From NCBI GenBank assembly GCA_013152295.1, contig JAADGQ010000103.1:2381-49806 (forward strand): a DNA stretch of 47,426 nt. The letters run 5' to 3'. Source of the DNA: Gammaproteobacteria bacterium. Lineage in GTDB: Bacteria; Pseudomonadota; Gammaproteobacteria; JAADGQ01. Positions 24,519 through 36,173 of the stretch are shown here, one piece after another. Every line of letters begins with the position of its first letter. The stretch's first letter is position 1. The position numbers were made by a program, and so were the translations under genes. The notes below the pieces were generated by a model that saw only the letters and a program-made list of their open reading frames with translations, did not search any database and was not told where the DNA came from.

Positions 24519-26897
24519 TTAAATTTTGTTCAGCGTAATGCTGGCTTCTTCAATGCCAGGGAATTTTTCATCGCCTGCCAACGACTTCTGCAAGTGCCTC
24601 TTCGCATCGCTGATTCTACCCTGTTCGTAATAAACCATACCTAGATGGTAGTGATAGGCCGCAACATTTGGCGCGATCTCCAACACCTTTTCAAACAGGC
24701 GAGCAGCCTCTTTCAGGTTGCCACGTTTGTAGTAGACCCAGCCCAGCGTATCCATATAAAGCGGGTTGCCCGAGTTCTCAAAGCCACGAGCCAGATCCAG
24801 CGCCTTATCCAGACTCGCTGCATCACCTTTACGCCCAACGAGTAAAACAGCCAAGTTGTTAGCTGCCAACGCCATATCCGCATCGCTATCGAATAGCCCC
24901 TCGTAGAGCGCGATAGCGGCATCAACATCACCCTGATTTTCATAGACGCCGGCCAACTGCAACACAACCCGGCGATCGCCGGGTAGAGCAACCAGCGCCT
25001 CACGATAGATTCGAATCGCCGCATCAACATCACCACGAGTCAGATAGAGATTCGCTAAGTCGATATAAGCGTCGCGCATCTTCGGATCGACCTTAATCGC
25101 CCCCAATAAAGCTGCTTCTGCTTTGTCATAATGATATTGAAACGCTTCAACCTCGCCCAACAATCCATAGGCGGCGGCCAAATCCGGTGCACGCTCAATC
25201 ACTGCCTGAATCTTTAACACCGCCTCCTCGGCGTTGCCCTGGGTTAAAAAGTCTTTATAGATACGAAACAGCTCGGTCAATGGCTCCTTGCTATCCGGAG
25301 ACTTCTCCAGTGCACCCTCGAACTCCGAAGAGGCTTCGCTATAGCGCTGCTGTAGCTGGTAAATCTGCCCCATACTGTAGAAACCGACGGCTTGATCCGG
25401 GTATGCCACTTTAATCGCTTTGGCGACATTTTCAGCCGCCTTCCAATCGCGGCGGATCGTGTAGGCATCCACCTTGGCCAGCAGTGCATTAAGGTTTTTG
25501 GGCGCAAGTTCGAGCAGTTTATCAGCAGTTTTTAATACCCCGTCGAGATCACCCAAAGAGATCAATACCTTCAGCAGTGACTGCCAGGTAAAAACATCCT
25601 CGCCATCCAACGACAGCACTTTGCTCAGGCTATCGCGCGCGTTGCTGTAATCACCACTGATCACATAAGCCTCTGCCAACAATTTAAGCGCCTCGATGGA
25701 GTTGGGGCGTACCGTCAACACTGCTTGCAGATCGGCAATCGCTTCCCGCGCCTCACTACGCGCCAACGCCAGCTTGCTGCGCGTTAACAGCGCATCGCGG
25801 TCCTTCGGATTCGCTTTCAAAACTTCACTGACCAACGTCGCAGCCTTTTCAGCCTGACCACGCTGCAACAGCATCAATGCCAGCTTGTTGCGCGCGGCCA
25901 AACCATTCGTGCCTTTATCATCCAGCGCGGCAATATCCGAATAGAGCTGCTCGGCCTGCTCCGGCCGCTTGGTTGCCACATAAAGTTCACCCAGCGCCAG
26001 ACGCAGCTGCAACGCTTCGGGCCTGTCCTCAATAGCATTGATCAGCTCCTGCTCGGCGGCATTACTACCTTTGCGAGAGGCCAAAAATTTACTCAAGAGG
26101 ACCACACGTTGAGGGTCGGATGGATCCAGCTTAACCAGCTCGCGCAACGCCTCCTCGGCTTTTTCCAGCTGGTTAGTATTAGAGTAAAAAACGGCCAGGC
26201 GGATTCGATGGCGCAGATCCTCTGGCTCCATGGAGACTACCTGTTGCAGCAGCGCCTCACTCTTTTCCGGCTGATTTTGGTTCACCAAAATTTGCGCCAG
26301 CGAAAGGTGCAGCGCCGCACTGCGCGGGCTCGCCTTAATCGCCCGCCGCAGTATCTCATCCGCTTGGGCAATATCGCCCTCCCGGCCGTAGAGCGTCAGC
26401 AGCAATATGGCAGCCCCTGATTGCGTTGCGTCGGCATCGAACACGGCACGCGCCTCTTTGATCGCACCCGCTATGTCGTTGCTACGCGACATCACAATCG
26501 CGCGCAGCGTTCGTCCCTCCAAATTACTGGGATCTCTCTCCAGCAACGCCTGCAGTGTTCGGGCAGCCCTCTCCACCTTGTTTGCCTGCAGGTAGAGCTT
26601 GCTCAGTTTAATGCTCGCCTGGGCCTGTCCTGGTTCCAACTCCAGCACTTTGTTGTAACTTTTGAAGGCCTGCTGCCACGCTTTCTCATGCTCCGCAATC
26701 CGGCCCAGCAAAAGATAAGCCTCTACAGACTGCGGGTTGCTCTGCAGCTCCAGCGTCAGCTCCGCTTTTGCGGCCTGAAAATCCCGCTTCTCCAGCAAAA
26801 TCTTGCTCTTGTTCAGGTGCGAGGGAAGCGCTGTATTTTGAGTTTCGCAAGCGCTCAGCAATAACCCGAATAAAACTAAAATGACAATATATTTCAT
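24519..26897 (-). CDS. Large TPR lipoprotein, PrsT-like
   Basis: A 792-residue lipoprotein. The ATG at 26897 is followed by a lipoprotein signal (MKYIVILVLFGLLLSAC) with the lipobox cysteine at 17; an upstream ATG at 26930 would displace it. The rest is about twenty TPR units, covering nearly the whole chain, with repeats such as DFQAAKAELTLEL and SVEAYLLLGRIAE. The layout (signal, Cys, wall-to-wall TPRs, a final unit with LGWVYYKRGNLKEAARLFEK) resembles PrsT, the TPR lipoprotein of PEP-CTERM/exosortase systems, and a PEP-CTERM protein is encoded at 42.1 kb. No other exosortase gene is beside it, so the link is only suggestive. It may also be a general assembly scaffold. Confidence 0.75.
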   Translation of the reverse strand: MKYIVILVLFGLLLSACETQNTALPSHLNKSKILLEKRDFQAAKAELTLELQSNPQSVEAYLLLGRIAEHEKAWQQAFKSYNKVLELEPGQAQASIKLSKLYLQANKVERAARTLQALLERDPSNLEGRTLRAIVMSRSNDIAGAIKEARAVFDADATQSGAAILLLTLYGREGDIAQADEILRRAIKASPRSAALHLSLAQILVNQNQPEKSEALLQQVVSMEPEDLRHRIRLAVFYSNTNQLEKAEEALRELVKLDPSDPQRVVLLSKFLASRKGSNAAEQELINAIEDRPEALQLRLALGELYVATKRPEQAEQLYSDIAALDDKGTNGLAARNKLALMLLQRGQAEKAATLVSEVLKANPKDRDALLTRSKLALARSEAREAIADLQAVLTVRPNSIEALKLLAEAYVISGDYSNARDSLSKVLSLDGEDVFTWQSLLKVLISLGDLDGVLKTADKLLELAPKNLNALLAKVDAYTIRRDWKAAENVAKAIKVAYPDQAVGFYSMGQIYQLQQRYSEASSEFEGALEKSPDSKEPLTELFRIYKDFLTQGNAEEAVLKIQAVIERAPDLAAAYGLLGEVEAFQYHYDKAEAALLGAIKVDPKMRDAYIDLANLYLTRGDVDAAIRIYREALVALPGDRRVVLQLAGVYENQGDVDAAIALYEGLFDSDADMALAANNLAVLLVGRKGDAASLDKALDLARGFENSGNPLYMDTLGWVYYKRGNLKEAARLFEKVLEIAPNVAAYHYHLGMVYYEQGRISDAKRHLQKSLAGDEKFPGIEEASITLNKI

Positions 26898-27110
26898 AAA
26901 GTTATCGTTGAAATCCAACATAGAGCTCATAGAAAAAGGCCGTCAAACATCCCGTCTGTTATCGACCGCCGCAACGGTGAAATTCACTGACACAATACGC
27001 CAACCTGCTGCGCAACGTCCAAATCATCTCTGACCTAATTTGCAGTGAACAGGTTCTTTGTAGCAGAGGGGACTATGGTAAGGTGTCGGCAATAATTAGA
27101 TCAAGGCGAA

Positions 27111-28019
27111 ATGGCGCCGAAACACACAAGAACCATGACACCGAACGACTACTGCCAGAACAGAGCTTCAAAAAGCGGCTCCAGCTTTTATTACAGCTTC
27201 CTTTTTCTACCTGCCAAACAGCGCCAGGCGATCATCGCTCTCTATGCCTTTTGCCGCGAAGTCGATGATGTGGTGGACGAATACACGGATGAAAATCTCG
27301 CCCGAATCAAGCTCGCATGGTGGCGCGAAGAGGTCGCACGCACTTTTCAGGGTGAACCTCAACATCCGGTAGGTAAGGCGCTACTCGAGGCCACTGACAA
27401 CTTCAATCTTCCTCAGGAGTACTTTGCAGAGATCATCGACGGCATGGAGATGGATCTGAATGATACCCGCTACGCAACCTTTAAAGAGCTGGCACTCTAC
27501 TGCCATCGCGTAGCCGGCGTCGTCGGCCTCATGGCTGCTGAAATTTTTGGCTATGAAGATCGCCGCACCCTTGATTATGCACAATCACTGGGCATGGCTT
27601 TTCAGCTCACCAATATTCTGCGCGATGTACGTGAAGATTGTGATCGTGGTCGCCTCTACCTTCCTCTCGAAGACCTGCAACGCTTTAATGTCAGTACAGA
27701 GCAGATCGCCTCCTACACGACCACCGATAACATCAGAGCGCTATTGGCTTTTGAAGCACAGCGTGCCCATGACTATTATCAAAAAGCCTTTGATGAACTC
27801 CCTGCATGTGACCGTTACCGACAGCTCAGTGGCTTGATTATGGCTGCAATATATAAGACCACCCTGCAGGAGATTGAGAACGATCACTTTAACGTATTGC
27901 AACATCGTATTCGCCTCACGCCGCTACGCAAATTGTGGATCGCATGGAAGACTGCCCGCCATGAAAAAAAAGCTCACAAGCAGATACAACGACGCACAAA
28001 AGCAGCCGATAGCATCTAG
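27111..28019 (+). CDS. hpnD: Squalene/phytoene synthase family protein, HpnD-like
   Basis: A 302-residue trans-isoprenyl diphosphate synthase. The substrate-binding aspartate motifs are both present: YAFCREVDDVVDE (about 45-57) and NILRDVREDCDRGRLYLP (about 167-184). The opening SGSSFYYSFLFLP and length match HpnD, which makes presqualene diphosphate from two farnesyl diphosphates for squalene and hopanoid synthesis. The usual partners hpnC and hpnE are not adjacent. AAGG lies ahead of the ATG at 27111, but relatives usually begin at the later ATG (27135), so the start is uncertain. Phytoene synthase is the main alternative. Confidence 0.8.
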   Translation: MAPKHTRTMTPNDYCQNRASKSGSSFYYSFLFLPAKQRQAIIALYAFCREVDDVVDEYTDENLARIKLAWWREEVARTFQGEPQHPVGKALLEATDNFNLPQEYFAEIIDGMEMDLNDTRYATFKELALYCHRVAGVVGLMAAEIFGYEDRRTLDYAQSLGMAFQLTNILRDVREDCDRGRLYLPLEDLQRFNVSTEQIASYTTTDNIRALLAFEAQRAHDYYQKAFDELPACDRYRQLSGLIMAAIYKTTLQEIENDHFNVLQHRIRLTPLRKLWIAWKTARHEKKAHKQIQRRTKAADSI

Positions 28020-28403
28020 TTTTTTTATGGCAGAACAAGGCAGCCAAGTGCTGCGTAAATTTTCTTAAACCCACGCTCTCATCTCACCAGTCCGTCCCCC
28101 CAAAGCGCCCTTGCAACAAAGGGTTGCGTCTCACACCCGATACGTATACATTGTGCGTGGTTGATAACCTGCTAATGTAGTTGACGATACGGGTTGCGCA
28201 CGATGATCAAATCAAGAAATATAGATATCCCAAGCCTGACCCTATATTTTTTCAACACAGCAAAATTCGCTATTTATCGCCATGACATAGAGGTGAATAT
28301 GCAAGCAACCAAACAATCCGTTACTTGCTAGCCCAGTCCGAAATGACTACCTCGATTAATGTGATCTTCATCACAAAACGACAAAACCAAGGGCACTAGT
28401 GTC
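28020..28403. other. 384-base intergenic region with CRP-type site
   Basis: Three elements are visible. A small hairpin GCAGC-CAAGT-GCTGC (28040-28054) lies just after hpnD and may help end its transcript. An inverted repeat AAATATAG / CTATATTT (28217-28224 with 28242-28249) encloses a CAAGCCTGACC core that looks like a REP remnant. A CRP-type dyad follows at 28360-28375 (separate entry). A 10-codon ORF at 28299 with a good ribosome site was not accepted as a gene. Confidence 0.5.
28360..28375. promoter_or_regulatory. CRP/Vfr-type operator ahead of the envelope-signalling operon
   Basis: TGTGA-TCTTCA-TCACA is a perfect match to the CRP consensus half-sites TGTGA-N6-TCACA. It ends 28 bases before the first start codon of the four-gene operon. 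No good -35/-10 pair is clear downstream, so the site could activate from close range or repress. Confidence 0.65.
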
Positions 28404-28883
28404 GTGACTTTTAAGCGAGCATACCAAGCAATGGTGCGATCCATAATCGTATTGGTAGCGCTTGGTTTGTTCGCCGTTAATGCGACTGCAGAGACCCACA
28501 ATAAAGCACGCGGTGAAGTGGGTGAAGTGAAAGTCATCGCCTCTCCAGACACACCTGCACGCGAAACCACCGTACCTCAGCTGCGCGCAATCTTTGCCAT
28601 GCGGCTGCATAAATGGGCTGGCAACTTGCCTGTTACCGTTTATGTGCTGAGCGACTACCACCCCACTCACGCCGCGTTCAGCAAAACCATTCTGAATCTC
28701 TTCCCTTACCAAATGCGCAGAACATGGAATCGCTTGGTATTTTCAGGAACGGGTCAAGCACCCGAAGAGGTGCTCTCTGAAGAGGAGATGGTGCGCAAGG
28801 TGGCGTCAACCCCCGGAGCCATTGGCTACATAAGGAGGGTCAAAGCAGATGACAGCGTCCATGTGCTCAAGATCCATCGCTAA
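28404..28883 (+). CDS. Small periplasmic phosphate-binding-protein-like factor
   Basis: A 159-residue exported protein starting at GTG (or at the ATG at 28431). The signal peptide is IIVLVALGLFAVNATAE. The mature ~130 residues resemble half of a PstS-type binding protein (PBP-like family): VKVIASPDTPARETTVPQLRAIF early, PVTVYVLSDYHPTHAAF in the middle, and VASTPGAIGYIRR near the end, the last being the usual GxIGY motif. It is too short for a two-lobe binding protein, so it may be a one-lobe sensor or co-factor rather than a transporter part; no ABC transporter genes are near. It is first in an operon with an outer-membrane barrel, a GGDEF-EAL protein and an acyltransferase. Confidence 0.78.
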   Translation: MTFKRAYQAMVRSIIVLVALGLFAVNATAETHNKARGEVGEVKVIASPDTPARETTVPQLRAIFAMRLHKWAGNLPVTVYVLSDYHPTHAAFSKTILNLFPYQMRRTWNRLVFSGTGQAPEEVLSEEEMVRKVASTPGAIGYIRRVKADDSVHVLKIHR

Positions 28884-28914
28884 CCATGTTAGCTCGCGAC
28901 AGACGAATGGAATC

Positions 28915-30111
28915 ATGACTAAAACCACAGCAGTTATCTTGCTGACACTGTCAGTCGCCTCTCCGTTTGCCAGCAGCCTCGCAGGCAACAGCGCAAGCTC
29001 TGTGCAACTGCATGGCTTCATCAGTCAGAGTTACACACGCACATCCAACAACCGATTCTTCGGGGAGAGCGAAAACAACGGCAGCTTTGACTTCAGAGAG
29101 ATGGGCATCAATATCTCGGCACGACCCTCTCCCGACCTGCAGCTGGCCGCACAGCTCACCTCACGCAAAGCAGGCAAAAGTGACGACGGTGATGTACAGC
29201 TCGACTATGGATTGATGGATTACAGCTTTGCCGCCAATGAAACAGCGCGCTATGGAATGCGTCTTGGTCGCCTTAAAGTACCGCTGGGCCTATACAACGA
29301 GACCCGTGGTGCGCCGATGACCCGTGCTGGTATTTTGCTGGCTCAGTCCATCTACTTCGAGCGCTCGCGTAATGTCGCACTCTCCGCCGATGCGGGCGAG
29401 CTCTACGGCGAATACCGAGGCACCTTTGGGCAACTATCCGCACAAGCTGCGGTGGGCCGACCCAATGTTGTTGACCCAGACATCGAAACCGCACTGTTTA
29501 AACGCAACCAACCTGGAAGGCTGGAGGATGACATCGCCTACTCCGGTCGTATCATGTACGAAAACAGCGCCAGCACCCTGCGCGCGGCACTCAGCCATCT
29601 GCGTTTGTATATCCCCTATAACGCTGCTCCTGGCGATCCACTCGGCAATGGTGAAATTCGTTTTATCCCTTGGGTGCTCTCGATGCAGTACGACAGCGAA
29701 TTTTGGACACTCACGTCGGAATACGCTATCCGTCGCTTTGAATATTCACAGTTTGCCGCTTTTAATGACTTCGACATCAATGGGGAGAGTTACTATATCC
29801 AGGCTCAATATCACATAGCACCACGTTGGCGAGCACTGCTGCGCTACGACGTACTCTACAACGATGCCAAAGATCGCGACGGGCACGCCTTCGCAGCGAA
29901 CCCTGCGAATCGCGGGGTGCCTGCTTACAGCCAATTTGCCAAGGACTGGGCGATTGGCCTGCGCTGGGATGCACACCGACACCTGATGCTTAGAGCTGAA
30001 TACCATGACATCAACGGCACAGGCTGGCTACCCAACAATGACAACCTGATTCCCGCTGCCACACAAAAACATTGGAATCTGTTCTTGCTGTCGGCGACAC
30101 TCTATTTTTAG
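28915..30111 (+). CDS. Outer-membrane beta-barrel, porin-like
   Basis: A 398-residue exported protein. The ATG at 28915 gives a clean signal peptide (MTKTTAVILLTLSVASPFAS); the frame is open further upstream into the preceding gene. The mature chain is rich in alternating strands with aromatic girdles (YYIQAQYHIAPRWRALLRYD, FAKDWAIGLRWDA, LMLRAEYHDIN) and ends in Phe (FLLSATLYF), as outer-membrane barrels do. It begins VQLHGFISQSYTRT, in the style of phosphate- or DcaP-type porins, but I cannot name a substrate. No plug or TonB box is seen. It lies 31 bases after the small binding-protein gene and is probably its partner. Confidence 0.78.
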   Translation: MTKTTAVILLTLSVASPFASSLAGNSASSVQLHGFISQSYTRTSNNRFFGESENNGSFDFREMGINISARPSPDLQLAAQLTSRKAGKSDDGDVQLDYGLMDYSFAANETARYGMRLGRLKVPLGLYNETRGAPMTRAGILLAQSIYFERSRNVALSADAGELYGEYRGTFGQLSAQAAVGRPNVVDPDIETALFKRNQPGRLEDDIAYSGRIMYENSASTLRAALSHLRLYIPYNAAPGDPLGNGEIRFIPWVLSMQYDSEFWTLTSEYAIRRFEYSQFAAFNDFDINGESYYIQAQYHIAPRWRALLRYDVLYNDAKDRDGHAFAANPANRGVPAYSQFAKDWAIGLRWDAHRHLMLRAEYHDINGTGWLPNNDNLIPAATQKHWNLFLLSATLYF

Positions 30112-30170
30112 CCGGTAGCAGGCCGTTGAAAAGCTCACACCACCACGGCTTCACTATATGGCGCGGCAGT

Positions 30171-33071
30171 ATGAAAACGGGCAAAACTTCATCACCAACG
30201 ACACGATTCCTCAGCCTGAAATGGCAGGCAGTATTGTTGGTGAGTATCGTATTGGTTGCGGTGAACGTGGCGATCTCACTTCTCAGCTACCACTCACTGT
30301 CAGACCAGTTCGAGCATGAACGCACGGTCGCCCAGCAACGCCATGCACAACAGCTCAGCGGACTCATCAAGCAATCTGAGCAGAAGCTGCAACAGCTTGG
30401 TGACATGCTACCCACCTTTGATGGCATCAAAGCAGCTCTTGCCAAAGGTGATGCTGATCTGATCAGCAATCAACTCGAAAAACACTGGCCAACACTACAT
30501 ATCGATCTGGGCATTGACAGTGTTGCTTTTTATGGCAACGGCAACCAACTCATCACATACAAAAACACCAAACGACAAACACCGATCAAACAGAGTCTGT
30601 CTGAACTTGTCAAAGCTGCTAACGACCGTGAAACACCAGCGGCACTGCTGAATTGCAATCATGGCTGCCTCCAGTACGTAGCCGTACCACTGCTGATTGA
30701 TGGTAAAAAAGTAGGGGTTGTCACCCTGGGCATCTCTCTTGCCGACCTGCTGCTCGGGTTTCAGCAGATAGCCAATGCCGACATCGCGATCATCAACACC
30801 GTGGCACCGCAACAAGGCAGCCCGGCAGAGGAGCCTGTCGATCGTGCCATTCCCGCTTGGGGCCGCCATGTAGAGGCGCTGACTCACGCCGAAAAAACGC
30901 TGCGAATTATTCGCCTCGCTGCCAAAAAATACCCAGCACTTTCGAGCGCACAGTTTCGCATTCGCGATCCGGCATCGGACCAGCACTATGAGATAGCATT
31001 GATACCACTGGCGGCTTACACGCAATCCCAACCAACTGATATCGCCATCATCGCCAATATCAGCGGCGCGCTAAAACAGATTCATAGCGCCGTTCAGCAG
31101 AGTGTCATTATCGGGATTATCAGCCTAGCGCTGTCCGAGTTGGTGCTACTTGCGCTGCTCTGGGTGCCTATGGCACGCCTGAGAAACATGGCTGAAACCT
31201 TGCCACTGCTGGCACGCAGTGCCTATGCAAAAGCACGACACGCCATTGCCCGACCTGCTGAAAGACAGTGGCTCGCTGACGAGATCGATCTGCTCGGCGA
31301 CAGTACGATCGAACTCTCTCACCAGCTGGAAGATCTGGAAAATCAGGTTGAACACCACACCCACTCATTAGCAGAAAAGATCGGCGAGCTCGCCCACGAA
31401 CGAGACTTCGTGCAGGACCTGCTCAACACCGTGCAGGTCATCATCCTCACCCAAGACAGCGAAGGTCGCATACTGCTGATCAATGACTACGGTCAGCGTT
31501 TAATCGGTTACAGCCAGCAGGAGCTGCATGGGCGCCGTTTCACCGAACTACTCGCTGACGATGGCGCACTCTCCACATGCCGCATCAAAGTAGAAGAGGT
31601 GATTAGCGGACGCCAGACGCAAACCCAGCAGGAGTGCGTCATCACCTGTAAAAACGGCACATGTCGAAATATCGCCTGGTTTCACTCACACCTGACCAGC
31701 GAACAGAAACGGGGGCAGACACTGCTCTCAGCCGGACTGGATATCACCACACGAAAACAGGCCGAGTCACGACTCGCCTGGCTGGCCGACCACGACCCGT
31801 TAACAATGCTGCCCAACCGTCGCCGACTGCAGGAGGAGCTCGCCATCATGTTGACACTGGCCGACCGCCACAAACACACTGGGGCGCTGCTATTTATTGA
31901 CTTGGATCAGTTCAAATATGTAAATGACACCAGCGGCCATCACGCTGGGGATGCACTACTGAGAGAGGTCGCCACTACCCTGAAACAGCTGCTGCGCAGC
32001 TCGGATATCGTTGCTCGACTGGGCGGTGACGAGTTCGCTGTCATCGTCCCGGAGATCAATGAAAAAGGAGCCGTCCAGGTTGCCCAAAAAATTCACGAAG
32101 ACCTCGCGACCATTGAGTTCCCTGTCCATCAGCGCGCCCACAAAGTCACCGCTAGCATCGGCATCGCCATGTTTCCGGCTCACGGTGCCCAACCTCACAC
32201 CCTGCTAGCCAACGCCGACCTAGCCATGTACCACGCAAAAGGGGCAGGCAGGAACCGCTCACACCTATTTTCTCCCGATGAGAAAGCCCGCGAACGCATG
32301 CAGGCTGACATAGATTGGCAGCAACGCATCGAACATGCCTTGAATCACGGTGGCTTCACGCTGCTCTACCAGCCGATCATGGATCTATCCAAGGAAAATA
32401 TCTCTCACTACGAAGTGTTGCTGCGTATGCGTGATAAAAACAGCGCTCTGCTAGCGCCGCAATCGTTCATCGAGGTTGCAGAGCGTAATGGTCAAATACG
32501 CGCTATCGATCATTTTGTATTAAAGCGGGCGATCACCCAGCTTTCAAAAATCACCACCAAACGGAATGATGTCACCCTCTCCATTAATCTCTCCGCCCAT
32601 GCTTTCGATGATCCCGAACTGCTCTCTCTGCTTAAAGGGCTGCTTGAAGAGACCTCCGTCCCCCCCAAGCAACTTGTTTTTGAGATCACTGAAACGGCTG
32701 CTCTCGCCGACATCATCGCGGCTCGTGACCTGATGATTGCCATTCGTAGGCTGGGCTGCCAATTTGCGCTGGATGACTTCGGTGTCGGCTTCTCCTCCTT
32801 CCACTATCTCAAGGAGCTACCCTTTGACTACGTCAAGATTGATGGCTCTTTCATTCGCAATTTGTCACAAAACAGGGATGACCAAATATTGGTAAAAGGT
32901 ATCTGCAGCGTAGCAGAGGGCTTCGGCAAAAAAATCATCGCCGAGTTTGTGGAGAACGAAGAGACGCTGGAACTGCTCAGAGAGTTCCAGGTTGATCTGG
33001 CTCAGGGCTACCACATCGGTGCACCTATCGATACAGTCCCTGATGACAACCGCTACCCAACCATCCATTAA
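30171..33071 (+). CDS. Membrane sensor with PAS, GGDEF and EAL domains (c-di-GMP turnover)
   Basis: A 966-residue protein from the ATG at 30171; the frame is open 33 codons upstream into the porin gene. Its order is: membrane segment 1 (about 17-38), periplasmic sensor (about 40-305), membrane segment 2 (about 310-332), coiled coil, PAS (about 410-530), GGDEF (about 540-705; HDPLTMLPNRRR, LGGDEFAVIV intact, RSSD inhibitory site five residues before it) and EAL (about 720-960). The EAL motif reads EVL, and downstream residues NLSAHAF, EITETAAL, DDFGVGFSSF and KIDGSFI are kept, so both synthesis and breakdown of c-di-GMP are possible. The sensor holds a CNHGC pair that could bind metal or form a disulfide. 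Third gene of the operon. Confidence 0.92.
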   Translation: MKTGKTSSPTTRFLSLKWQAVLLVSIVLVAVNVAISLLSYHSLSDQFEHERTVAQQRHAQQLSGLIKQSEQKLQQLGDMLPTFDGIKAALAKGDADLISNQLEKHWPTLHIDLGIDSVAFYGNGNQLITYKNTKRQTPIKQSLSELVKAANDRETPAALLNCNHGCLQYVAVPLLIDGKKVGVVTLGISLADLLLGFQQIANADIAIINTVAPQQGSPAEEPVDRAIPAWGRHVEALTHAEKTLRIIRLAAKKYPALSSAQFRIRDPASDQHYEIALIPLAAYTQSQPTDIAIIANISGALKQIHSAVQQSVIIGIISLALSELVLLALLWVPMARLRNMAETLPLLARSAYAKARHAIARPAERQWLADEIDLLGDSTIELSHQLEDLENQVEHHTHSLAEKIGELAHERDFVQDLLNTVQVIILTQDSEGRILLINDYGQRLIGYSQQELHGRRFTELLADDGALSTCRIKVEEVISGRQTQTQQECVITCKNGTCRNIAWFHSHLTSEQKRGQTLLSAGLDITTRKQAESRLAWLADHDPLTMLPNRRRLQEELAIMLTLADRHKHTGALLFIDLDQFKYVNDTSGHHAGDALLREVATTLKQLLRSSDIVARLGGDEFAVIVPEINEKGAVQVAQKIHEDLATIEFPVHQRAHKVTASIGIAMFPAHGAQPHTLLANADLAMYHAKGAGRNRSHLFSPDEKARERMQADIDWQQRIEHALNHGGFTLLYQPIMDLSKENISHYEVLLRMRDKNSALLAPQSFIEVAERNGQIRAIDHFVLKRAITQLSKITTKRNDVTLSINLSAHAFDDPELLSLLKGLLEETSVPPKQLVFEITETAALADIIAARDLMIAIRRLGCQFALDDFGVGFSSFHYLKELPFDYVKIDGSFIRNLSQNRDDQILVKGICSVAEGFGKKIIAEFVENEETLELLREFQVDLAQGYHIGAPIDTVPDDNRYPTIH

Positions 33072-33117
33072 TAGCCTGTTAACACAATTGGATTATCACA
33101 GCCAAAGGAGCCGCGCC

Positions 33118-33834
33118 ATGAATGAAAATGTAATAAGCCAGGATCCCTCCTCCTTTCAACCATCCAGCCAATTCGCAACAACACAGGACGAAAGACGGCA
33201 ACGAGAAAACGACAGGCGACAACAAGCGCGCGGTGACCGACGCACCGGCGATGATCGGCGCCTTATCAGTCGCGATGGCCTAGTCGTTCGCACCGTTGAT
33301 GGCGATGATGAGCTGGATCAAGTCTATCGATTGATCCACGATGCTTACGTCGAACAGGGCTACTGTCAGCCGCGTGCCGATGGCAGACTCATCTACCACG
33401 AAACCCTGACTCGCTCTCCACAAACTCACGTCCTGCTGGCAAAAAAAGAGGATGAGGTGGTCGGCACTCTGTCTGCCACCCTAGAAGGCCCACTGGGATT
33501 GCCATTGGACCCAGGCTTCCACACAGCCCATAAACGTATCGCGCGCGAAAAGCGAGCACTGTCGGTTATCTGGAGGCTGGCAACCCACAGGGATTACCGC
33601 CAAAATCAGTTCGTTGTCATGGAGCTCATCAAACTGGCGGTCCTGTCATCAATCCAACATGGCGCTATCACCGCCCTGTGCGTGTTTCACGACCATCATG
33701 AAAAACTCTACCAACGGCTGTTCAAGATGGAGTCGATGGCCCGCTGCAATACCGTGGATGGGTTTAATAACGAAACATTCGTCATGATGCGCTGCGACGC
33801 AGAAAAATGTCCGCCACGCTGGCTGCCCAACTGA
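33118..33834 (+). CDS. FeeM-like N-acyl amino acid synthase (GNAT fold)
   Basis: A 238-residue GNAT-fold protein. The first ~60 residues are polar, rich in Arg, Gln and Asp, and probably flexible. Then come QVYRLIHDAYVEQGYCQP, HVLLAKKEDEVVGTLSATLEGPLGLP, VIWRLATHRDYRQ and ITALCVFHDHHEKLYQRLF, which resemble FeeM-type N-acyl amino acid synthases. These join an acyl chain from acyl-ACP to an amino acid and are known to be linked with PEP-CTERM/exosortase loci. AGGAG lies 7 bases before the ATG at 33118; the longer open frame overlaps the previous gene and is not used. It is last in the operon, 46 bases after the GGDEF-EAL gene. Product and acyl donor are not known here. Confidence 0.7.
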   Translation: MNENVISQDPSSFQPSSQFATTQDERRQRENDRRQQARGDRRTGDDRRLISRDGLVVRTVDGDDELDQVYRLIHDAYVEQGYCQPRADGRLIYHETLTRSPQTHVLLAKKEDEVVGTLSATLEGPLGLPLDPGFHTAHKRIAREKRALSVIWRLATHRDYRQNQFVVMELIKLAVLSSIQHGAITALCVFHDHHEKLYQRLFKMESMARCNTVDGFNNETFVMMRCDAEKCPPRWLPN

Positions 33835-34059: not shown

Positions 34060-34338
34060 ATGGTAATCGTTCGTTTGGCTCGCGGTGGTGCAAAGAAGGC
34101 TCCTTTTTACAGCATCGTCGTTGCCGACAGCCGTTTCCCCCGCGATGGCCGTTATATCGAAAAGATCGGTTTCTTTAATCCTGTCGCCAAAGAAGGGACG
34201 GAGCGCCTGCGTGTCAACCGCGAGCGTGTTGAGCACTGGCTGTCACAGGGCGCTCAACTCTCTGATCGTGTTGCCACGCTGCTGAAAAGCAACGCTGATG
34301 CAAAAAGTGACGAGAGCAGCGAACCTGCGGCGGCTTGA
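34060..34338 (+). CDS. rpsP: 30S ribosomal protein S16
   Basis: A 92-residue S16, a core protein of the small subunit body. The opening [20 protein letters not shown] and later [14 protein letters not shown] are diagnostic. The C-terminal tail (after about residue 75) is Ser, Ala and Asp rich. It starts the rpsP-rimM-trmD-rplS operon, with a good ribosome site (AGAGGAAG). The 5' neighbour is the FeeM-like gene instead of the common ffh. Confidence 0.97.
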
Positions 34339-34880
34339 AGCCATCTGATTTAGCACTGCCAACGACGGCCAAGCCATCCGATCAGCAACGTATTACGGTA
34401 GGACGGCTGGGTGCCCCGTATGGCGTAAAAGGCTGGCTAAAGGTTAGCTCATACACTCAGCCCAACGACAATATTTTCAGCTACTCACCGTGGCAGGTAA
34501 AGTTGCCCGAAGGCTGGCGCACCGTCAACTACAGTGGCGGCAAGCAGCACGGCAAAGGCTTGGTCGTTCAGCTCGATGGTGTCGATGACCGCGATGCGGC
34601 AAGCCGTTATTGCGGCTTGGATATCGTTATATGCAGTGATCAGCTGCCACCGTGCGAAACCGACGACTACTACTGGAGTGAGCTGATTGGTCTGAGTGTC
34701 GTCACTCGCGACGGTGTTGAGCTAGGTACAATCCAGTCACTGCTGGAGACTGGTGCGAACGATGTGATGGTCGTTAAAGGTGAGCGCGAACGCTTGATCC
34801 CTTACCTCTTTGGCGATGTCGTGGTAAAAGTAGAGGTGGATAACGGCGTCATGCAGGTCGATTGGGATGCAGACTTTTGA
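34335..34880 (+). CDS. rimM: 16S rRNA processing protein RimM
   Basis: A 181-residue RimM, which helps mature the 30S head and binds S19. The N-terminal domain has [18 protein letters not shown]; the PRC-barrel domain has [16 protein letters not shown] and later [13 protein letters not shown]. The start is a TTG that overlaps the rpsP stop codon (TTGA), so translation is coupled. No ATG or GTG gives a complete N-terminus. Confidence 0.95.
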
Positions 34881-34885
34881 CGCAG

Positions 34886-35647
34886 ATGCGGATTGATGTC
34901 ATCACGCTGTTTCCGCAGATGTTCGACGCGGTGACAGCGTTCGGCGTCACCGGCAGGGCAGTAAAACAGGGCATTGTGGACGTTGCGCTGTGGAACCCGC
35001 GCAACTTTAGCCATAATCGCCACCGCACGATAGATGATCGTCCGTACGGCGGCGGACCCGGCATGGTGATGATGGCACCGCCGCTGGGTGACGCTATCGA
35101 GGCGGCTAAAGCTGCCTCTGGACAAAAGACTGCGGTGATCTACCTGACGCCGCAGGGCAAACGTCTCAATCAACACGACGTACAGGAGATCGCCTCACGA
35201 CCAGGGATGATTCTGCTGGCAGGTCGCTACGAAGGCATTGATGAGCGGCTGATCAGCTCGCATGTGGATGAAGAGTACTCCATCGGCGACTACGTCTTGA
35301 GTGGCGGTGAACTGGCAGCAATGGTGCTCATCGATGCGGTGAGTCGGCTACTACCAGGGGTGCTGGGGCACGATGAGTCAGCGCAGCAGGACTCGTTCAG
35401 CGACGGCCTGCTCGACCATCCGCACTACACGCGGCCAGAGTCGGTAGCAGGCGTTGCGGTACCGAACGTGCTGACCAGCGGCGATCACCGCGCCATTGCG
35501 CAGTGGCGCAAAAAGCAGGCGGTCGGCCGCACTTGGCAGAAACGCCCTGATCTGCTGAGCAGTGCCGACCTTGATGCTGAGGTCAAACAGCTGTTGGATG
35601 AGTATATTGAAGAATTTGAGGGTCATTTTGAGGGTAACAAGAAGTGA
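34886..35647 (+). CDS. trmD: tRNA (guanine-37-N1)-methyltransferase
   Basis: A 253-residue SPOUT enzyme that makes m1G37 in tRNAs reading CCN, CUN and CGG codons, which prevents frameshifting. It shows [13 protein letters not shown] at the start, the knot motifs [24 protein letters not shown] and [14 protein letters not shown], and [12 protein letters not shown] chose the ATG at 34886, 5 bases after the rimM stop; a TTG overlapping that stop (34877) is an alternative. Part of the rpsP operon. Confidence 0.97.
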
Positions 35648-35828
35648 CCTGATAACTGCTTAACGTGTTGAATTGATCAGCACCAAAACACATTGAGCAA
35701 GCAATAATGGGCAGGTAAAAAAAGGTTGTGTACAAACCCCGCACTTCTGCGCACAACGCGTCACGAAGGCAGTGGTTTCTCTGCACTGCATATAAATCAC
35801 AAACTTGATCGTTACGGGAAAGTAGACC

Positions 35829-36173
35829 ATGAGCAATATCATCGCAAAGATTGAAGCCGAACAGTTAAAGAAGGATATTCCTGAGTTCGCACCTGGGGAC
35901 ACCGTTGTTGTCCAGGTCCGTGTAACAGAGGGCTCACGTGAGCGGCTACAAGCCTTTGAAGGCGTCGTCATTGCCAAGCGTAATCGCGGCTTGAACTCTG
36001 CATTCACGGTGCGCAAAATCTCTCACGGCGAAGGTGTTGAGCGCGTTTTTCAGAGCCACAGCCCAATGATCAGCAGCATCACCGTCAAACGCCGTGGTGA
36101 TGTGCGCCGCGCAAAACTCTACTACCTGCGTGATCTGCGCGGCAGGGCGGCACGCATCAAAGAGAAGCTCTAA
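35829..36173 (+). CDS. rplS: 50S ribosomal protein L19
   Basis: A 114-residue L19, at the interface of the two subunits. It shows [41 protein letters not shown] and the tail [15 protein letters not shown], all standard. It is the last gene of the rpsP operon. The 181-base gap after trmD is longer than usual and may hold a second promoter or a processing site; I could not pick one out. Confidence 0.97.

Follow-up and report, generated by a model that had tools for sequence, protein, structure and literature searches.

The DNA stretch analysed here, hereafter the window, comprises 47,426 nucleotides of contig JAADGQ010000103.1 (assembly GCA_013152295.1) of a Gammaproteobacteria bacterium (JAADGQ01), whose genome is a 2.46-Mb metagenome-assembled genome (MAG) of 181 contigs in an order comprising only three genomes. 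It carries a cluster of four genes, encoding a periplasmic binding protein (PBP), a porin-like barrel, a membrane receptor for the turnover of cyclic di-GMP (c-di-GMP) and a protein of the FeeM acyltransferase family. The PBP, porin and dCache-PAS-GGDEF-EAL receptor genes form a conserved set in Gammaproteobacteria, beside which acyl-ACP (acyl carrier protein) N-acyltransferases have been recruited repeatedly, as their varied arrangement, the use of two enzyme families and changes along the trees indicate. The cluster comprises the following features:

28360-28375, + strand: palindrome TGTGA-N6-TCACA (TGTGATCTTCATCACA) like a cyclic AMP receptor protein (CRP) site, perfect match, 28 bases 5' of the first gene
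28404-28883, + strand: putative secreted single-lobe PstS-like binding protein, 159 amino acids (aa), GTG start, PBP_like_2 (PF12849)
28915-30111, + strand: porin-like outer-membrane barrel, 398 aa, assigned from a Porin_4 match below the cut-off plus homology
30171-33071, + strand: membrane receptor dCache_3-PAS-GGDEF-EAL, 966 aa, assigned from Pfam, motifs and a predicted dCache fold
33118-33834, + strand: FeeM-family protein resembling acyl-ACP N-acyltransferases, 238 aa, PF21926, Val150 at the position of the catalytic Glu

The four open reading frames are all intact and are separated by 31, 59 and 46 bases, exactly as claimed in a first-pass annotation that had been made from the sequence alone.

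Proteins encoded by the cluster

The first protein matches PBP_like_2 with an E-value of 1.5e-7 over profile positions 94-185 of 267, and is called half-size on account of this coverage. Its AlphaFold model, with a predicted local distance difference test score (pLDDT) of 92, is predicted to represent one lobe of PstS, and its best fold matches in the PDB are all PstS proteins (TM score of approximately 0.6 by query length), in agreement with the half-size PstS-like periplasmic protein proposed earlier. From the PstS motif RxDxSGT the protein keeps R110 and S114-G115-T116, which we take to correspond to R135 and S139-G140-T141 of E. coli PstS, and has the Asp replaced by Val; the R110 position is Arg in 18 of 24 PBP relatives and the S-G pair is nearly invariant. 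With a single lobe and the motif Asp lost, it departs from the two-lobed phosphate-binding PstS. The second protein is best described as porin-like: its Porin_4 match (E 2.6e-4) scores 21.4 bits, below the 27-bit cut-off, there is a weak match to Porin_O_P (E 0.086), and a homologue in Pseudoalteromonas is annotated as a porin.

The receptor displays the Pfam domains dCache_3 (E 5e-20), PAS_4, GGDEF (E 1.7e-51) and EAL (E 7e-72). Its catalytic motifs are intact, including the RSSD I-site, GGDEF, EVL, DDFG, KID and E-V-E, and it has the motifs of a bifunctional GGDEF-EAL protein (RSSDIVARLGGDEF, YEVLLR, DDFGVGFS, VKIDGSF and AEFVEN); the active receptor MbaA also has EVL instead of EAL (PMC8079147). 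Residues 1-340 are predicted to form a double Cache domain (pLDDT 88) resembling those of PctA, Mlp24 and DctB, so that the earlier description of a membrane PAS-GGDEF-EAL protein with a large periplasmic domain is confirmed, with a dCache fold for its sensory part. A C162-x3-C166 motif in the periplasmic part (window 30654-30668) is invariant in all 23 aligned receptors and might form a disulfide or bind a ligand or metal.

The fourth protein had been proposed to be a FeeM-like N-acyl amino acid synthase (NAS). The family match holds, with an E-value of 5.9e-29 to PF21926 (101 bits, the cut-off being 27), and the profile of FeeM-like proteins matches the FeeM structure 2g0b in the PDB (E 9.9e-14) in an alignment that is gap-free between the G-L-P-x-D motif and the active site. 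Synthase activity is uncertain, since FeeM Glu95 corresponds to Val150. The active-site Glu (FeeM Glu95, Nas354 Glu103) is kept in the FeeM-family copies of genomes G337, G057, G076 and G093, and in Nas354 its change to Ala abolished the NAS phenotypes (PMC4897644). With Val in place of the catalytic Glu, the window copy may or may not make N-acyl amino acids, and its sequence would be compatible with a changed substrate, a changed mechanism or lost catalysis. An Asp/Arg-rich N-terminus of this protein (window 33190-33261, DERRQRENDRRQQARGDRRTGDDRR) was considered as a c-di-GMP site and dropped, since it is missing from relatives. A phmmer search against the PDB returned no relative of the FeeM-like protein or of the sensor, and none convincing for the PBP; the structural relatives named above came from the profile (FeeM-like protein) and from predicted folds (PBP and sensor).

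Genomic association of the acyltransferase with the receptor set

Among 369 surveyed genomes of the window's class, Gammaproteobacteria, relatives of the PBP were found in 63 and of the receptor sensory part in 30. Across the approximately 40 regions that were read, the PBP gene is nearly everywhere followed directly by the porin gene, and in most of them this pair adjoins a dCache-PAS-GGDEF-EAL gene. Of the 30 receptor genomes, 15 (14 if that of the window is excluded) have an acyltransferase gene no more than 7 kb from the receptor gene, where genome sizes and copy numbers would predict 0.13 such pairs by chance; over genomes, the two co-occur with an odds ratio of 23, the Poisson and Fisher figures ignoring phylogeny. 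The order PBP-porin-receptor-FeeM is identical in G206, G309 and G381, and G192 has porin-receptor-FeeM in the same order, the PBP being absent owing to a contig end. In Halomonas sp. PA16-9, which has the same four-gene order as the window, as well as in G364 and G272, the place of FeeM 3' of the receptor is occupied by a TIGR03694/PF13444 protein with similarity to LuxI and OlsB. A class-wide search with the TIGR03694 protein revealed further linked genes, located upstream of and co-oriented with the PBP gene (G304, G322 and G175; also G077 and G197, with contig breaks), divergent from the set (G038, G286, G368, G180 and G054), or directly ahead of the receptor gene (G249); some loci are broken in draft MAGs.

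Judging from their sequences, two distinct sub-families, FeeM (PF21926) and TIGR03694/PF13444, fill the enzyme role, the latter in Halomonas and in eleven surveyed genomes. As the Glu motif E-I-S-R is retained in 13 of the 14 linked TIGR03694 proteins, an acyl product as the general role of the module is well founded. The receptor and enzyme trees need several gains or losses of linkage, many of their forks being weakly supported. That enzymes were repeatedly recruited to this one neighbourhood argues strongly for a shared function. The first-pass annotation had grouped the four families into one system, to be refuted if they were not co-located in related genomes; this comparison was run, and the grouping stands. 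A scan of named genomes with the single FeeM protein gave no match, and a scan with the FeeM alignment retrieved three MAGs, all of which had been found before; the Alteromonas and Aromatoleum plasmid TIGR03694 genes, when checked, proved to lack a neighbouring receptor set.

TIGR03694 takes its name from exosortase systems, and Craig et al. (2011), as relayed by papers citing them, reportedly tied N-acyl amino acid synthases to such systems. The receptor-set acyltransferases occupy a context apart from PEP-CTERM and lack the exosortase association typical of it: an exosortase lies within 50 kb of none of the 17 set-linked genes versus 16 of 48 unlinked ones, many of these at 11-16 kb, with distances limited by contig ends in draft genomes. 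At an E-value of 1e-10, no exosortase was detected in eight of the 17 linked genomes; the window genome has one on a different contig (G000:C181). Both contexts are found together in G206 and G309, each of which has a FeeM gene within the receptor set as well as a TIGR03694 gene situated 12 kb from an exosortase. A contrasting PEP-CTERM context was seen in G337 (L075:5231-7384), with tandem FeeM-type genes having the canonical Glu approximately 14-15 kb from an exosortase. The window itself encodes an 803-aa tetratricopeptide repeat protein (24519-26930, - strand) that comes near PrsT of the XrtA/PEP-CTERM system, scoring 302.9 bits for a cut-off of 312.2.

In some lineages the receptor output is swapped, being GGDEF only in G367 and G030 and a hybrid histidine kinase in G193. 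The PBP-porin pair thus stands beside varied receptors, which suggests a general unit that captures ligands for receptors of different kinds. A second small PBP and porin pair is present in the window genome, 3' of a CtpM-like methyl-accepting chemotaxis protein (G000:C98:22233-22580; L073:2474-5528), and G140 has two tandem PBP-porin pairs ahead of a single GGDEF-EAL receptor (L050:6461-9956). In G030 (L069:4385-7434), the place that the acyltransferase holds elsewhere is taken by a terpene synthase gene (PF19086), which overlaps the preceding GGDEF-only receptor gene by 4 bases and could represent a further small-molecule synthase filling that slot. In the single-contig genomes G364 (L051:4596-7438) and G272 (L052:4457-7245), the receptor gene appears as two open frames, which may reflect a frameshift or a sequencing error.

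The cluster is preceded by hpnD (27111-28019) and followed by genes that we take, from reading their translations, to be rpsP-rimM-trmD-rplS (34060-36173); with these flanks its borders are sharp and the neighbours unrelated. The perfect TGTGA-N6-TCACA site in front of the cluster, correctly reported by the first-pass annotation, is set against an expectation of 1.63 matches in the window at up to one mismatch and, by arithmetic, approximately 0.05 perfect ones. At zero or one mismatch the site is absent 5' of the PBP gene in all of the more than 30 relatives examined. Being perfect in the window only, it was rejected as a feature of the module, and its role is uncertain because it is not conserved.

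A candidate acyl signal to c-di-GMP circuit

In the ScrABC system of Vibrio parahaemolyticus, ScrA makes a signal, the PBP ScrB binds it and the GGDEF-EAL protein ScrC switches (PMC11315295), while in the NspS-MbaA system of Vibrio cholerae a ligand-bound PBP sets the output of a GGDEF/EVL receptor (PMC8079147, PMC9993111). These systems demonstrate that pairs of a PBP and a GGDEF-EAL protein work, and that a synthase can share their operon. Similar to ScrABC, the window has genes for a small-molecule synthase-like protein, a PBP and a membrane-bound GGDEF-EAL receptor in one cluster. ScrA, however, belongs to the aminotransferases, and no porin is part of the operon as described, whereas the window has an acyltransferase of the FeeM/LuxI/OlsB superfamily, a single-lobe PBP and an adjoining porin gene. 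The module would therefore work like ScrABC, and not be ScrABC, because its synthase is of the FeeM family and not a ScrA-type aminotransferase. As in nspS-mbaA, the PBP gene lies 5' of the GGDEF/EVL receptor gene; NspS-MbaA differs in its polyamine ligand, and no acyltransferase or porin has been described in that module.

We propose, with a probability of roughly 45%, that the cluster encodes a circuit from a self-produced acyl signal to c-di-GMP, built like ScrABC. This reading draws directly on the gene content, the folds, the intact c-di-GMP motifs and the conserved, repeatedly evolved gene association. The N-acyltransferase, FeeM-type here and TIGR03694-type in most relatives, would use acyl-ACP to attach a fatty acyl chain to a small amine. 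We infer that the acylated product would exit the cell and re-enter through the dedicated porin, and that it may be the ligand that the one-lobed PstS-like protein and the receptor's dCache domain bind jointly. Ligand binding would shift the balance of diguanylate cyclase (GGDEF) versus phosphodiesterase (EAL) activity, in a direction that we can only suppose, and the shifted c-di-GMP level would set a surface or a free-living lifestyle. The first-pass annotation had suggested a similar route, in which the barrel admits a ligand that the small protein and the periplasmic domain sense, with c-di-GMP and an acyl amino acid as parallel outputs. The folds are as it proposed, and the acyl product as a parallel output is weakened; given the repeated recruitment of signal-synthase-like enzymes beside a PBP-coupled receptor, the product as input, that is as ligand, fits at least as well.

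Several observations weigh against this circuit. Val occupies the FeeM Glu95 position in all five receptor-linked FeeM proteins, window included. The PstS-type lobe keeps a partial anion site, which would fit phosphate as well as carboxylate. Finally, an adjoining acyltransferase is missing from about half of the receptor sets, so that the ancestral ligand need not be the enzyme product, and the receptor can work with another ligand source.

These enzyme-free sets, in which sensing works alone, are also in keeping with the enzyme being an output. The receptor would then sense an outside ligand, and c-di-GMP or co-expression would control the production of a surfactant or matrix lipid of the N-acyl amino acid type, with no feedback on the receptor. 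N-acyltyrosines act as surfactants (PMC4897644), and an NAS-PilZ fusion provides a precedent; however, no PilZ domain was found in the linked enzymes scanned, and an output gene need not stay beside one receptor among a genome's many c-di-GMP enzymes. We consider this explanation unlikely, although it deserves serious attention. Less probable still is a phosphate-status module, in which phosphate would be captured by the PstS lobe and porin and relayed by the receptor to c-di-GMP, with the OlsB/FeeM-like enzyme initiating an aminolipid free of phosphorus when phosphate becomes scarce. Lipids of the OlsB type take the place of phospholipids when phosphate is low, the TIGR03694 members resemble OlsB, and the exclusively PstS top fold matches, the conserved R110 and S114-G115-T116 and the weak Porin_O_P match would suit such a module. 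Yet only half of the phosphate site is present, with its Asp lost, PBP-porin relatives also lie beside the CtpM-like chemoreceptor and the hybrid kinase, and no OlsA-like partner occurs among the identified neighbours. Furthermore, no Pho-box-like site was found in the upstream region of the window, nor any marked enrichment in relatives.

The Glu to Val change in the five receptor-linked FeeM proteins, among which a W-R-L-A-T stretch near Val150 is invariant, could also mean that the FeeM clade protein is a non-enzymatic fossil or regulator that binds acyl-ACP and tunes the receptor or operon. This is quite improbable, as it would account for the FeeM clade alone, the Glu is retained in the linked TIGR03694 proteins that fill the same role, and not all enzymes of the Gcn5-related N-acetyltransferase (GNAT) fold need that Glu. 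That the FeeM gene is a chance neighbour of the three-gene set, as might be argued from most FeeM-family genes of the class lying elsewhere and from the enzyme-free sets, is already largely refuted: linkage was found in 15 genomes where 0.13 pairs would be expected, and it involves two enzyme families in several arrangements.

Known families and significance of the module

Every component of the proposed circuit comes from a known family, and the module is a PBP-coupled c-di-GMP receptor with no new kind of protein. Its enzyme belongs to the same Pfam family as the FeeM/NAS proteins, for which one precedent, the NAS-PilZ fusion, ties NAS to c-di-GMP; unlike that precedent, the window copy has Val for Glu and no PilZ domain, and lies alongside a complete receptor set. 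With the TIGR03694 PEP-CTERM acyltransferases the module shares the superfamily and the presumed chemistry, and these proteins play the same role in most relatives, for example Halomonas sp. PA16-9. In contrast to PEP-CTERM members, the set-linked copies are often found in exosortase-free genomes. No description of the four-gene combination was found in the open-access literature, which is weak evidence of absence given that most subscription papers were outside the scope of the search.

The physiological role of bacterial NAS has been called open (PMC4897644). The specific set of PBP, porin and c-di-GMP receptor represents a concrete, testable receptor and pathway for NAS and PEP-CTERM-type acyltransferases, and Halomonas sp. 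PA16-9 is a named isolate in which experiments could begin. More tentatively, the module could represent a LuxR-free class of quorum sensing in Gammaproteobacteria, assembled several times independently, with a diffusible acylated signal made by FeeM- or TIGR03694-type enzymes, a receptor composed of a one-lobe PBP and a dCache-GGDEF-EAL protein, its own porin and a direct path from cell density to c-di-GMP. The module may thus define a LuxR-bypassing route from self-made acyl signals to c-di-GMP, and suggests that bacteria may have a means, as yet undescribed, of sensing a molecule of their own making.
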